Assembly (NCBI RefSeq): GCF_030682845.1
Contig: NZ_JAUXNK010000096.1
Span: forward strand, 1 to 64,000
Length of the DNA: 64,000 nucleotides
From: Methanolobus sp.
Lineage (GTDB): Archaea; Halobacteriota; Methanosarcinia; Methanosarcinales; Methanosarcinaceae
Direction: 5' to 3'
Shown in pieces: positions 27,777 to 31,449 of the stretch (the stretch's first letter is position 1; each line of letters begins with the position of its first letter). The translations under genes and the position numbers were made by a program. The notes under the pieces are model-generated. The model was given only the letters and a program-made list of their open reading frames with translations. It made no database searches and had not been told where the DNA came from.

Positions 27777-29183
27777 ATGAAGATCAACAGCCCTCTTGAG
27801 GCTTACAAGTACCTGCCCGGTACAAACTGCGCAATATGCGGTGAGCAGACATGTATGGCATTTGCCTCGCACCTGATAGACAGATCCAAGAAACTCAGTG
27901 AATGTACCCCGATGCTCGAGGACAAGTTCAGGAAAAAACTCGATCAGCTTCAGGGACTGCTCGCACCCGAGATCAGACAGGTCGAGATCGGTGTCGGTGA
28001 AAAGGTCGTGAAGATCGGCGGCGATGATGTGCTCTACCGCCACAAGCTGACATTCTTCAACCAGACTGCACTGGCCTATGATGTATGGGACACCATGGAC
28101 GAGAAGGATCTTGTGGAAAGAGTGAATAAGATACAGGGTTTTAAGAAATTCTATGTAGGCAACTTCCTGACAGTTGACATGGTAGCTGTGCGCAGCACGT
28201 CCAACGATCCCAAAAAGTTCGCATCTGCGGTGAAGAAGGTCGTTGAGACAACAGACATGCCTTTAGTGCTCTGTTCATTCAACCCGGAAGTGCTGAAGGC
28301 CGGACTTGAAGTTGCAAAAGACAGGAACCCGCTGCTATATGCCGCAAACAAGGACAACTGGCAACAGGTGGCTGCCCTGGCTCTCGAGTACGATGTGCCT
28401 GTAACTCTCTTCGCACCCAATGACCTCGATCTGCTGAAATCACTCGCAAAGACCTTTGCTGAGATGGGCACCGAGAAACTTGTGCTCGACCCGGGAACAT
28501 TCCCCTCAGGAAAACAGCTTAAAGAAACTTTCAGTAACTTCATCAAGATACGCAGGGCAGGTATAGACGGCGACCGGGAGATAGCATTCCCGCTCATGGC
28601 AGTTCCACTGACAGCCTGGATGGTCCACGACGATCCCGTAAGTGCATCATATTGGGAAACTGTTGTCGCTTCAGTTTTCACCATAAAGTATGGAGACATA
28701 ATGATTCTCCATAGCATCGAACCTTATGCGATGCTGCCGGAGCTTCACATCCGTGATACGATATACACAGATCCAAGAAAGCCTGTGAGCGTTGACCCCG
28801 GGATGTACAAGATCGGGGCTCCTACAAAGGATTCACCTGTGTTCGTGACGACAAACTTCGCCCTTACATACTACACTGTGGAGAGCGACATCTCTTCCAA
28901 CAAGATAGACTGTTTCCTATGGGCTATCGACACCGATGGTATAGGTGTCGAGGCTGCGGTGGCAGGTGGCCAGCTTACGGCTGCCAAAATAAAGAAGGGG
29001 ATCGAAGAGTCCGGATTCAATATGAAGGATGACACATCCCATAACACCATCATCCTGCCTGGACTTGCTGCACGTCTGCAGGGAGATGTTGAGGATGAGA
29101 CCGGGTCCAAGATCCTTATAGGGCCCGCGGACTCAGGCCGTATACCAGGCTGGCTGGAGAAGAACTGGCCTCCGAAGAAGTAA
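27777..29183 (+). CDS. cdhE: CODH/ACS complex subunit gamma (corrinoid Fe-S protein large subunit)
   Basis: CdhE carries the low-potential [4Fe-4S] cluster and binds the cobamide that shuttles the methyl group. The 468-residue protein opens with the cluster motif GTNCAICGEQTCMAFA followed by a fourth Cys (LSECTPML), then a TIM barrel and a C-terminal cobalamin-binding region (GIEESGFNMKDDTSHNTIILPGLAARL). GGAGGTG lies immediately before the ATG, and only three bases separate it from the cdhD stop. It is the last gene before a strong terminator hairpin. Confidence 0.96.
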   Translation: MKINSPLEAYKYLPGTNCAICGEQTCMAFASHLIDRSKKLSECTPMLEDKFRKKLDQLQGLLAPEIRQVEIGVGEKVVKIGGDDVLYRHKLTFFNQTALAYDVWDTMDEKDLVERVNKIQGFKKFYVGNFLTVDMVAVRSTSNDPKKFASAVKKVVETTDMPLVLCSFNPEVLKAGLEVAKDRNPLLYAANKDNWQQVAALALEYDVPVTLFAPNDLDLLKSLAKTFAEMGTEKLVLDPGTFPSGKQLKETFSNFIKIRRAGIDGDREIAFPLMAVPLTAWMVHDDPVSASYWETVVASVFTIKYGDIMILHSIEPYAMLPELHIRDTIYTDPRKPVSVDPGMYKIGAPTKDSPVFVTTNFALTYYTVESDISSNKIDCFLWAIDTDGIGVEAAVAGGQLTAAKIKKGIEESGFNMKDDTSHNTIILPGLAARLQGDVEDETGSKILIGPADSGRIPGWLEKNWPPKK

Positions 29184-29201
29184 ATAAATTCAACGGTTGA
29201 T

Positions 29202-29240
29202 CTCCGTGCCTTAACCACACGGAGGTCTATACTATTTTTT
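29202..29240 (+). terminator. Terminator of the cdh operon
   Basis: CTCCGTG and CACGGAG form a perfect seven-base-pair stem around a nine-base loop, followed ten bases later by TTTTTT. It begins 19 bases after the cdhE stop and fits transcription ending after the operon. Confidence 0.75.
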
Positions 29241-29304
29241 CCTATACGCTAAAAAGGAATCACAATACTATTATAGAGCTTGTGGAATTCTAATATGTGA
29301 AACC

Positions 29305-29652
29305 ATGGAACTTATCGTACGAAGTGAGAAAAGCCTTGAGCTTACAAAAAACGGTAAGCACTGCACAATAGTAGGAGATGTTGCAGATATCACAGATGAA
29401 CATATACGCAAGCTTGCAGAATGGGCAGATACATTATGGAATTATGATAAGATAAGCATGTGGAAAAAGTCAGATTCCATGGAGCCCGGATACTTCATCC
29501 GCGATAGTGCCGGTGGAAAGTACAAAGTCCATGTACTTGACAGAGAGCAGCTCGAAGCTCTTTTTGATGCCTCCCGCAAGGATAGTCCGGCTAAGCTGCA
29601 CAACTGGCAAAAGAGAGATATCATGGCCTATGTAGACTGGTTCATCCAGTGA
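29305..29652 (+). CDS. Small soluble protein of unknown function downstream of cdh
   Basis: I do not recognise this 115-residue protein. It has no signal peptide, membrane helix or Cys motif (one Cys). A short N-terminal beta-like part (MELIVRSEKSLELTKNGKHC) precedes a Trp-rich region (LAEWADTLWNYDKISMWKK) and a C-terminal helical part (DIMAYVDWFIQ). GTGAA lies just upstream of the ATG. It lies after the cdh terminator, so it is probably a separate transcript. Confidence 0.7.
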   Translation: MELIVRSEKSLELTKNGKHCTIVGDVADITDEHIRKLAEWADTLWNYDKISMWKKSDSMEPGYFIRDSAGGKYKVHVLDREQLEALFDASRKDSPAKLHNWQKRDIMAYVDWFIQ

Positions 29653-29679
29653 CACACACGTTTCTCGAAGAAGCCCTTA

Positions 29680-29859
29680 TTAAAGACCACAGTCAGTAGC
29701 AGACATCTCCTGAACCAGATCTTTTGCAAGGTCAACTGTGACCTTTGACTCAAGATACCTGAGATATTCGCACTTACCCGTTTTCCTATAAATGATGCAA
29801 CTGGTACAGTACATCAACTTGTTCTCTTTCGAGTACCCCATCGTTTCTATTACACACAT
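29680..29859 (-). CDS. Very small Cys-rich protein (59 aa), third of a mini-operon
   Basis: Too short for the ORF track; translated by hand. The 59-residue product starts MCVIETMGYSKENKLMYC and has cysteines at positions 2, 18, 21, 30 and 57, including CTSC and a later KCEYL, so it may bind a metal. Its ATG lies inside the end of the upstream small gene (ten-base overlap) with GGTGGGA two bases before it, indicating translational coupling. Function is unknown. No signal peptide is visible, so it is probably cytoplasmic. Confidence 0.65.
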   Translation of the reverse strand: MCVIETMGYSKENKLMYCTSCIIYRKTGKCEYLRYLESKVTVDLAKDLVQEMSATDCGL

Positions 29860-30017
29860 GCTCCCACCATACTACAATCTGCTCCTACTAAGGCAATGTC
29901 GTTTCCTGAAGTGATCCTGCCGCACCTTTCACAGTAGTAGAACACATTCGATCCTACAGACTGTCTCTTAAGCCCGGTGCCACAGTACTCACACGACGTA
30001 CCGTCCCTTCTGCTCAT
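29850..30017 (-). CDS. Very small zinc-ribbon-like protein (55 aa), second of a mini-operon
   Basis: Too short for the ORF track. The 55-residue product has two CxxC knuckles 17 residues apart (SCEYCGTGL and YYCERCGRI), a classic zinc-ribbon layout, plus two further cysteines near the C-terminus (ADCSMVGACV). AAAGGGG lies about six bases before the ATG at 30017. Such proteins in Methanosarcina-type genomes may bind nucleic acid or protein partners; nothing here shows which. It overlaps the next small gene by ten bases. Confidence 0.7.
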   Translation of the reverse strand: MSRRDGTSCEYCGTGLKRQSVGSNVFYYCERCGRITSGNDIALVGADCSMVGACV

Positions 30018-30052
30018 ATGAAGCCCCTTTCATTGTCCGGTTTTCCCCAGCT

Positions 30053-30205
30053 TTACTTTGAGCCAATACCGCCTATCATGAACCGGATCAAATCCAACTC
30101 ATCAGCATCCACACACTTTTCGTATTGACCATTTACAATGGACATATATTCGGTCTCCATCTTCTGACACTTATATGTTTTTACACACTTTTGAACGTTT
30201 CGCAT
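30053..30205 (-). CDS. Very small protein (50 aa) with three cysteines, first of a mini-operon
   Basis: Too short for the ORF track. The 50-residue product starts MRNVQKCVKTYKCQKMETEY and has cysteines at 7, 13 and 31, with a hydrophobic-glycine C-terminus (LIRFMIGGIGSK). AAGGAG lies ten bases before the ATG, and a TATA-like AAATATATC lies about 50 bases upstream. It is separated from the zinc-ribbon gene by 35 bases. I do not recognise the family. Confidence 0.55.
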   Translation of the reverse strand: MRNVQKCVKTYKCQKMETEYMSIVNGQYEKCVDADELDLIRFMIGGIGSK

Positions 30206-30393
30206 AATTCATTACTCCTTTTCTCTCTTACAGAGTATAGAATTGCTTCTGAATAGATATATTTGATGTAAATAATCTGTATATACCAATATTGAATATA
30301 TAGGCACTATAGAAACACACCGGATGCTAAAAAAGAGAAGGTCAGGATGCACATACATATACTCAGAAGAACATTAACGACAGAGGAATACAG

Positions 30394-31449
30394 ATGAGCG
30401 ATGTTTTTTTCAAACCTGCGGAAAGTATAGGTGCTGATGAGACCCAGATAGACCAGATCACCGCCCTGTTCCCAAAGATATCGCCTGTTCAAGAAGGAGA
30501 TATCGTTGCTGTGAAGATACACCCGGGAGAGTATGGGAACACCACACACATACACCCGATACTTGTCAAAACAGTGGTCGACCTTGTAAAGGAAGCTGGT
30601 GGCATACCTTTTGTCACCGATACCACGGTATTATATAAAGGCAGGAGGTTCAATGCTGCGGACCTCATCTGTACCGCGGCATCGAACGGATTCTCACATG
30701 CAGGTATGGGAGCTCCTTTTATTTGTGCCGACGGGCTTCATGGTGATGACAGTATAGTCGTCAGGATCAACGGAACAAAGCTCGATGAGATAACGGTTGC
30801 CTCAGCTATCGCTAAGGCAGATTCAATGATAATGCTGTCTCATTGCAAAGGCCATCCTGCTTCCGGCTTCGGGGGCACCGTAAAGAACCTGGGCATGGGG
30901 TGTCTGGATAAAGCAGGCAAGACCCTTGTCCACAAACCGGGCGTACCTGACATAGACCCCGAAAAATGTACAGGCTGTAGCAAGTGCATATCAGAGTGCC
31001 TGTGGGGTGCACTGTACATGGAGGGCGACACAGCCAGGGTGAATACGGAGTTGTGCAAAGGCGACCTTTCGTGCGCAAATAGCTGCAGGTATGGGGCAAT
31101 TGTGCCACCTGAAGGATTCACCGATGAGATGCAGGCCCGGCTTGGAGAGGCGGCTCTGGGACCTGTAAAGGCCCTTGGGGGAAAGATAGGATACATCAAC
31201 TGGATATTCAACCTGACCCCGGGATGTGACTGTTTTAACTTCTCCGCACCCACGTTCGCTGGCGATATAGGGATACTTGCATCAAAGGATCCCGTTGCAA
31301 TAGATGTGGCAAGCATCGACCTTATTAACCGGAGAATGAAGCATGACCATGTGGGACAACTCACCAGTGTGTGGAACGTAGACCCGGTCATCCACGTTGA
31401 GTATGCTGCGAAGATAGGAGCAGGCAGCCTGCAATATTCCCTGCGCTGA
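30394..31449 (+). CDS. DUF362-type iron-sulfur protein with ferredoxin domain
   Basis: The 351-residue protein has a DUF362 core (VAVKIHPGEYGNTTHIHP at the N-terminus and LSHCKGHPASGFGGTVKNLGMG) interrupted by a ferredoxin insertion at about residues 185-230 with CTGCSKCISECLWGA and CKGDLSCANSC cysteines, enough for one or two [4Fe-4S] clusters. DUF362 proteins are widespread in anaerobes; their redox partner is unknown. No signal peptide is visible. It stands upstream of NMD3 by 57 bases. A role in electron transfer is likely, the pathway is not. Confidence 0.88.
   Translation: MSDVFFKPAESIGADETQIDQITALFPKISPVQEGDIVAVKIHPGEYGNTTHIHPILVKTVVDLVKEAGGIPFVTDTTVLYKGRRFNAADLICTAASNGFSHAGMGAPFICADGLHGDDSIVVRINGTKLDEITVASAIAKADSMIMLSHCKGHPASGFGGTVKNLGMGCLDKAGKTLVHKPGVPDIDPEKCTGCSKCISECLWGALYMEGDTARVNTELCKGDLSCANSCRYGAIVPPEGFTDEMQARLGEAALGPVKALGGKIGYINWIFNLTPGCDCFNFSAPTFAGDIGILASKDPVAIDVASIDLINRRMKHDHVGQLTSVWNVDPVIHVEYAAKIGAGSLQYSLR

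Follow-up and report, generated by a model that had tools for sequence, protein, structure and literature searches.

Three small genes convergent with cdhE in Methanolobus: a conserved microprotein operon and its relatives in Methanosarcinaceae

The locus studied here raises the question of whether three very short frames, lying convergent with the cdh genes of CODH/ACS in Methanolobus sp., are genuine genes, and what their products may do. The frames lie in a window of 64,000 nt (the whole stretch of DNA that was analysed) and fall under the length cut-off of its ORF track. A first-pass annotation, made from the letters of the window, had described them as an overlooked operon of small cysteine-containing proteins. 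In a limited literature search, no paper on these genes was found.

Layout of the locus and conservation in Methanolobus

The three minus-strand frames of 50, 55 and 59 codons, named S1, S2 and S3, were present where they had been reported, each with an ATG start. S1 (30053..30205; S1a where it is set beside its paralogue) encodes a microprotein of 50 aa, S2 (29850..30017) a predicted zinc ribbon of 55 aa, and S3 (29680..29859) a protein of 59 aa with the pattern MCxIExxGYS...YCxxCII...GKC. The Shine-Dalgarno sequences AAGGAG of S1 (30215..30220) and AAAGGGG of S2 (30024..30030), and GGTGGGA ahead of S3 (29862..29868), were likewise confirmed on the minus strand, and the GAGA-rich character of the S1 Shine-Dalgarno region is conserved among relatives. 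The end of S2 and the start of S3 overlap by exactly ten bases (29850..29859, minus strand, ATGTGTGTAA). The tail-to-tail arrangement with the cdh side was also correct: the convergent neighbour is a conserved protein of 115 aa (29305..29652, plus strand), which follows cdhE (27777-29183). On the other side, an intergenic region with conserved, AT-rich, promoter-like blocks (30206..30393) separates S1 from a divergent gene for a DUF362-like ferredoxin of 351 aa with two 4Fe-4S motifs (30394..31449, plus strand). No match was obtained in an Rfam scan of 29200-30500, and the 115-aa ORF matched no family above cut-off in Pfam and NCBIfam.

In 24 of 27 Methanolobus genomes, the trio occupied the same place with its order unchanged, flanked by the DUF362-like gene on one side and by the 115-aa ORF with cdhE on the other; all three frames were intact in 21 of the 27. 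For pairs of Methanolobus sequences, many of which were saturated at synonymous sites, the median dN/dS was 0.28 for S1, 0.16 for S2 and 0.12 for S3; in all usable pairs the ratio was below 1, for the three frames alike. Substitutions were 1.7-2.7 times more frequent at third than at first codon positions. The 10-base overlap was retained in every intact S2/S3 pair (22/22), which suggests that S2 and S3 are translationally coupled. Synonymous-biased substitution and frames kept across relatives, proposed in the first-pass annotation as marks of real genes, were thus both found. Freedom from stops and frameshifts in orthologous regions was found in part: S2 or S3 is hit by frameshifts in three Methanolobus genomes (G004, G015 and G016). 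S2 is missing from G013, both S2 and S3 are missing from G091, and in one or two further genomes the trio is degenerate or absent.

Such disruptions and losses would favour chance ORFs or a decaying region, but this reading is highly improbable, being contradicted by dN/dS values well under 1 in every usable pair, the third-position excess, the kept overlap and the conservation of S3 over six genera. We conclude, with near certainty, that S1, S2 and S3 are protein-coding genes under purifying selection. The overlooked operon is real, and a conserved operon had been concealed by a length cut-off. In three Methanolobus genomes the frameshift in S2 or S3 is a single one (loci L006, L021 and L017); L006 and L021 are from metagenome bins of one site, and their frameshifts may be assembly errors.

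A tie to CODH/ACS was not supported. The trio is convergent with cdh, this neighbourhood was seen only in Methanolobus and in genus g25, where the 115-aa ORF also adjoins the trio, and the homologues in other genera are not beside cdh. Since the arrangement is convergent and limited to these two genera, closeness to cdh is weak evidence of a shared function, and judged by gene order the trio is not specifically part of CODH/ACS.

The three protein families and their distribution

In S2, the cysteines C9, C12, C29 and C32 are invariant and form two CxxC knuckles, in agreement with the original reading of the protein, and by this pattern S2 is a zinc ribbon. With a single domain and 55 aa, it falls within the size of one-domain zinc-finger microproteins (< 70 aa). 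Weak matches to several zinc-ribbon models of Pfam and NCBIfam were found, none of them above cut-off. A further cysteine, C54, is invariant in Methanolobus and lost in most homologues outside the genus; it is a by-product of the overlap, because the same ATGTGT gives the Met-Cys of S3. The ribosomal protein eS26 was considered for S2 and S3 and rejected, given that the PDB-profile matches reached only E 0.01-0.14 and no S26e model appeared in the Pfam scans.

S3, described earlier as a small protein with CTSC and more cysteines, proved to be a conserved cysteine protein: Cys2, Cys18, Cys21 and Cys30 are invariant over six genera. The fifth cysteine is at position 57 in Methanolobus only and near 36 in other genera. 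The S3 family gave no match in Pfam and is, by this comparison, a new family. The AlphaFold2 model of S3, built from a 15-row alignment, was of low confidence (mean pLDDT 60.3), and no fold match was returned for it by Foldseek; PDB sequence profiles gave chance-level matches only. A viral origin of S3 was set aside, the viral contigs holding no relative. From the cysteine patterns, both S2 and S3 may be expected to bind zinc. Another four-cysteine small protein, sORF_06 of Methanosarcina mazei, was detected by Ribo-seq (PMC11456600). By description, it shares with S2 and S3 four clustered cysteines; it is translated and occurs mainly in Methanosarcina, with weaker homologues in the family, but it is a stand-alone gene, unlike the S2/S3 operon.

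Two minor observations concern S3 in other genera. In the three g8 genomes (L078:4150-4275, L079:10307-10423 and L080:10811-10936), S3 ends in TAG and is followed by an open tail of 24 codons. Pyrrolysine read-through was rejected; the tail has no codon-position bias, so that the TAG is probably a plain stop. In g4, the end of S3 is overlapped by a second ORF starting with Met-Cys, of 112 codons and from an unlisted family (L072:4504-4842, L075:4462-4800 and L082:3997-4335).

The description of S1 as a cysteine-containing protein has to be revised. Its cysteines vary across the family and none is conserved; the conserved feature is an exact C-terminus, F-x-x-G-G-x-x-x-K-stop, found in 60/60 copies, which were gathered with a profile containing this motif, although the position of the stop is not forced by the profile. 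The invariant residues are F(-9), G(-6), G(-5) and K(-1), counted from the stop. The C-terminal stretch shows zero length variation and a fixed distance to the stop, the N-termini are variable, and conservation is limited to about the last 30 residues. No S1 family member had a Pfam match above cut-off, the three window frames had none in Pfam or NCBIfam, and on these profile comparisons S1 is a new protein family; S1 and S3 thus add two families without a Pfam match to the archaeal small proteome. The AlphaFold2 model of S1 (15-row alignment) was of low confidence (mean pLDDT 58.6); looked at for a beta-grasp fold, it showed helices and one short hairpin. The C-terminal Gly-Gly of sulfur carriers of the ThiS/MoaD/SAMP type is absent from S1: the GG is not terminal, and four residues follow it in 60/60 copies.

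Members of the S1 family were found in 104 of 112 Methanosarcinaceae genomes and in 12 of the 14 genera of the family. With a loose cut-off, S3 was found in seven of the 14 genera, and convincingly in six of these. Among a 295-genome sample of the phylum, neither S1 nor S3 was found outside Methanosarcinaceae. Beyond Methanolobus, the full trio is present in g5 and g25, and in one g25 genome S1 remains at the cdh locus with S2 and S3 lost. The other combinations are S1-S2 without S3 in g3, S1-S2 and S3 at separate sites in g8, S2-S3 in g23, and S3 by itself in g4; the pairing of S1 with S2 recurs in five genera.

A paralogue of S1 upstream of sufS

A second copy of S1, named S1b, is present in nearly every genome. 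At all 22 loci examined, covering eight genera, S1b lies directly upstream of a gene for a SufS-family cysteine desulfurase. The two are 40-46 nt apart, except in genus g6, where the gap is 112-142 nt. Except in the Methanosarcina-type genera g7 and g11, S1b is also divergent from ycaO-tfuA, and both YcaO and TfuA were above the curated cut-off for the McrA-thioglycine type. S1 is a family-wide micro-gene linked to a cysteine desulfurase and, in most genera, also to the McrA-thioglycine genes. S1b could be related to ycaO-tfuA instead of sufS, but it stays with sufS even where ycaO is absent. The reading of S1b as a RiPP precursor was set aside, since the adjacent YcaO is above cut-off as the McrA-modifying type.

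SufE, IscX and ISD11 are small partners in SufS operons, and S1b is likewise a small gene always beside sufS; no sequence relation between them and S1, which lacks a Pfam match, was found. An LYR-motif desulfurase partner (ISD11) was rejected for S1: many S1b copies carry LYRF, the window copy has LIRF in place of the LYR motif, and the residues vary elsewhere.

At the end of most S1b copies is a hairpin, TGCAGGC...GCCTGCA, whose loop holds the stop codon and which is followed by a T-rich run. It was more stable than shuffled sequences at 20 of 22 S1b loci, compared with 1 of 24 for S1a; the window copy has no stop-codon hairpin. The hairpin was seen at L083:5128-5190 and at 21 further S1b loci, and it is kept in most genera. 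It belongs to S1b and not to the sufS promoter, given that in g6 (L119) it is still at the stop codon and sufS lies >100 nt further on. Placed between the micro-ORF and sufS, it looks attenuator- or terminator-like, and it may explain the Gln at -3 of S1b, which is absent from S1a.

Apart from S1b, the divergent placing of the desulfurase gene and ycaO-tfuA (L083:3946-7486) recurs in most Methanosarcinaceae genera. This arrangement suggests that the SufS-type desulfurase may supply sulfur for the McrA thioglycine. To our knowledge, the sulfur route for this modification in methanogens is not settled.

Possible roles of the operon

The reading that we prefer, tentatively and on the basis of gene neighbourhood, is that the trio may be a microprotein module for metal or sulfur homeostasis in Methanosarcinaceae. 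S2 and S3 would be translationally coupled, small cytosolic Cys4 proteins that bind a metal, most likely zinc. S1 would be a short protein for docking: its exposed C-terminal end, made of an acidic helix followed by FMIGGxxxK-COOH, would bind a partner that S1b uses as well. Because S1b lies upstream of the SufS-type desulfurase at 22/22 loci, this partner would most likely act in sulfur transfer or metal-centre assembly. The same position of S1b lends indirect support to the metal or redox handling suggested in the first-pass annotation. A second metal link for S1 comes from a gene for a Nif3-like dinuclear-metal protein, directly downstream of S1 in g6 and adjoining the trio in g5. The module would tune the delivery of sulfur or metal as redox conditions or the metal supply change. 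No sulfur gene adjoins the operon in the window.

The main rival is that S1 acts in cis as a leader peptide by nascent-chain arrest: as the ribosome nears the stop codon, the conserved last 30 residues would act from within its exit tunnel, and stalling would control the downstream gene, namely sufS for S1b and the S2-S3 pair for S1 in the window. The restriction of conservation to this stretch, with four residues and the stop distance invariant in all 60 copies, is in accord with such a role, as are the position of S1, nearly always directly upstream of a gene on the same strand, and the unusually stable hairpin with its T-rich run in S1b. C-terminal conservation, a fixed stop distance and an upstream position are shared with leader peptides of the TnaC/SecM type, and the stop-codon hairpin extends the likeness to S1b (20/22 loci) but not to the window copy. 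A C-terminal docking motif, however, would yield the same conservation, the spacing from S1 to S2 is variable, and S1a persists by itself in G091, where S2 and S3 were lost. The leader reading accounts better than the protein module for the exactness of the C-terminus and for the hairpin of S1b, but less well for the window copy. We lean towards the protein module and regard the leader peptide as a serious rival, possible but on the unlikely side. We know of no arrest peptide of the S1 type in archaea. A further-reaching form of the proposal, in which S1 is the first member of a family of archaeal nascent-chain regulators, appears distinctly unlikely; here the FMxGGxxxK C-terminus would halt the ribosome at the stop codon of S1 itself and so set sufS expression in nearly all Methanosarcinaceae, the duplicate would control S2-S3, and translation would thereby respond to sulfur or metal status. 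Should S1 prove to be an arrest peptide, it would be a rarity among archaea, and the idea is testable with the existing ribosome profiling data of M. mazei.

It is unlikely that S1-S3 are modulators tuning a metabolic complex, possibly CODH/ACS, Mtr or the modification of MCR, as MtrI, MtrR or sP36 do in M. mazei. Small-protein modulators, one of which has a zinc ribbon, have been described from Methanosarcinaceae (PMC12774963, PMC13370731, PMC10714827), S1b adjoins the McrA thioglycine genes ycaO-tfuA, and the trio is beside cdh in two genera, but the cdh neighbourhood is convergent and was not retained in other genera. The zinc-ribbon small protein MtrI (PMC12774963) can be compared by description: like MtrI (MM_2401, 68 aa), the S1-S3 set is lineage-restricted to Methanosarcinaceae, includes Cys4 proteins and varies in genomic context. 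Homology to MtrI was rejected, the profiles of S1, S2 and S3 scoring no more than 6.2 bits on MM_2401, whose sequence was read from a genome that matched a published primer exactly. The four cysteines of MtrI lie within its first 18 residues and are followed by helices, whereas the cysteine spacing of S2 and S3 is different; an N-terminal short Cys4 ribbon with a corrinoid-binding Cys40 helix was not matched by either protein.

It is quite doubtful that S2, and S3 with it, are zinc-ribbon nucleic-acid binders that regulate either transcription or translation and are aided by S1 as an accessory. S2 gave weak matches to the C-terminus of endonuclease VIII (E 2.4e-4) and to the PDB profiles of eL43 and eS26 (E 0.01-0.09), but every match was far below the curated cut-offs; S2 has no DNA-binding domain beyond the ribbon, and S3 has no recognisable binding surface. 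In favour of such a role, haloarchaeal zinc-finger microproteins influence biofilm formation and swarming (PMC6562870). Proteins of the Haloferax HVO_2753/HVO_0758 type resemble S2 in being archaeal, shorter than 70 aa and of one domain with two CxxC knuckles; S2 differs from them in its conserved operon with two unrelated microproteins, and the likeness is one of architecture. Zinc-ribbon microproteins resembling S2, about 40-80 aa long, were also observed elsewhere in most Methanosarcinaceae genomes (L025-L030), among them the window's own genome (G000:C58 and G000:C77).
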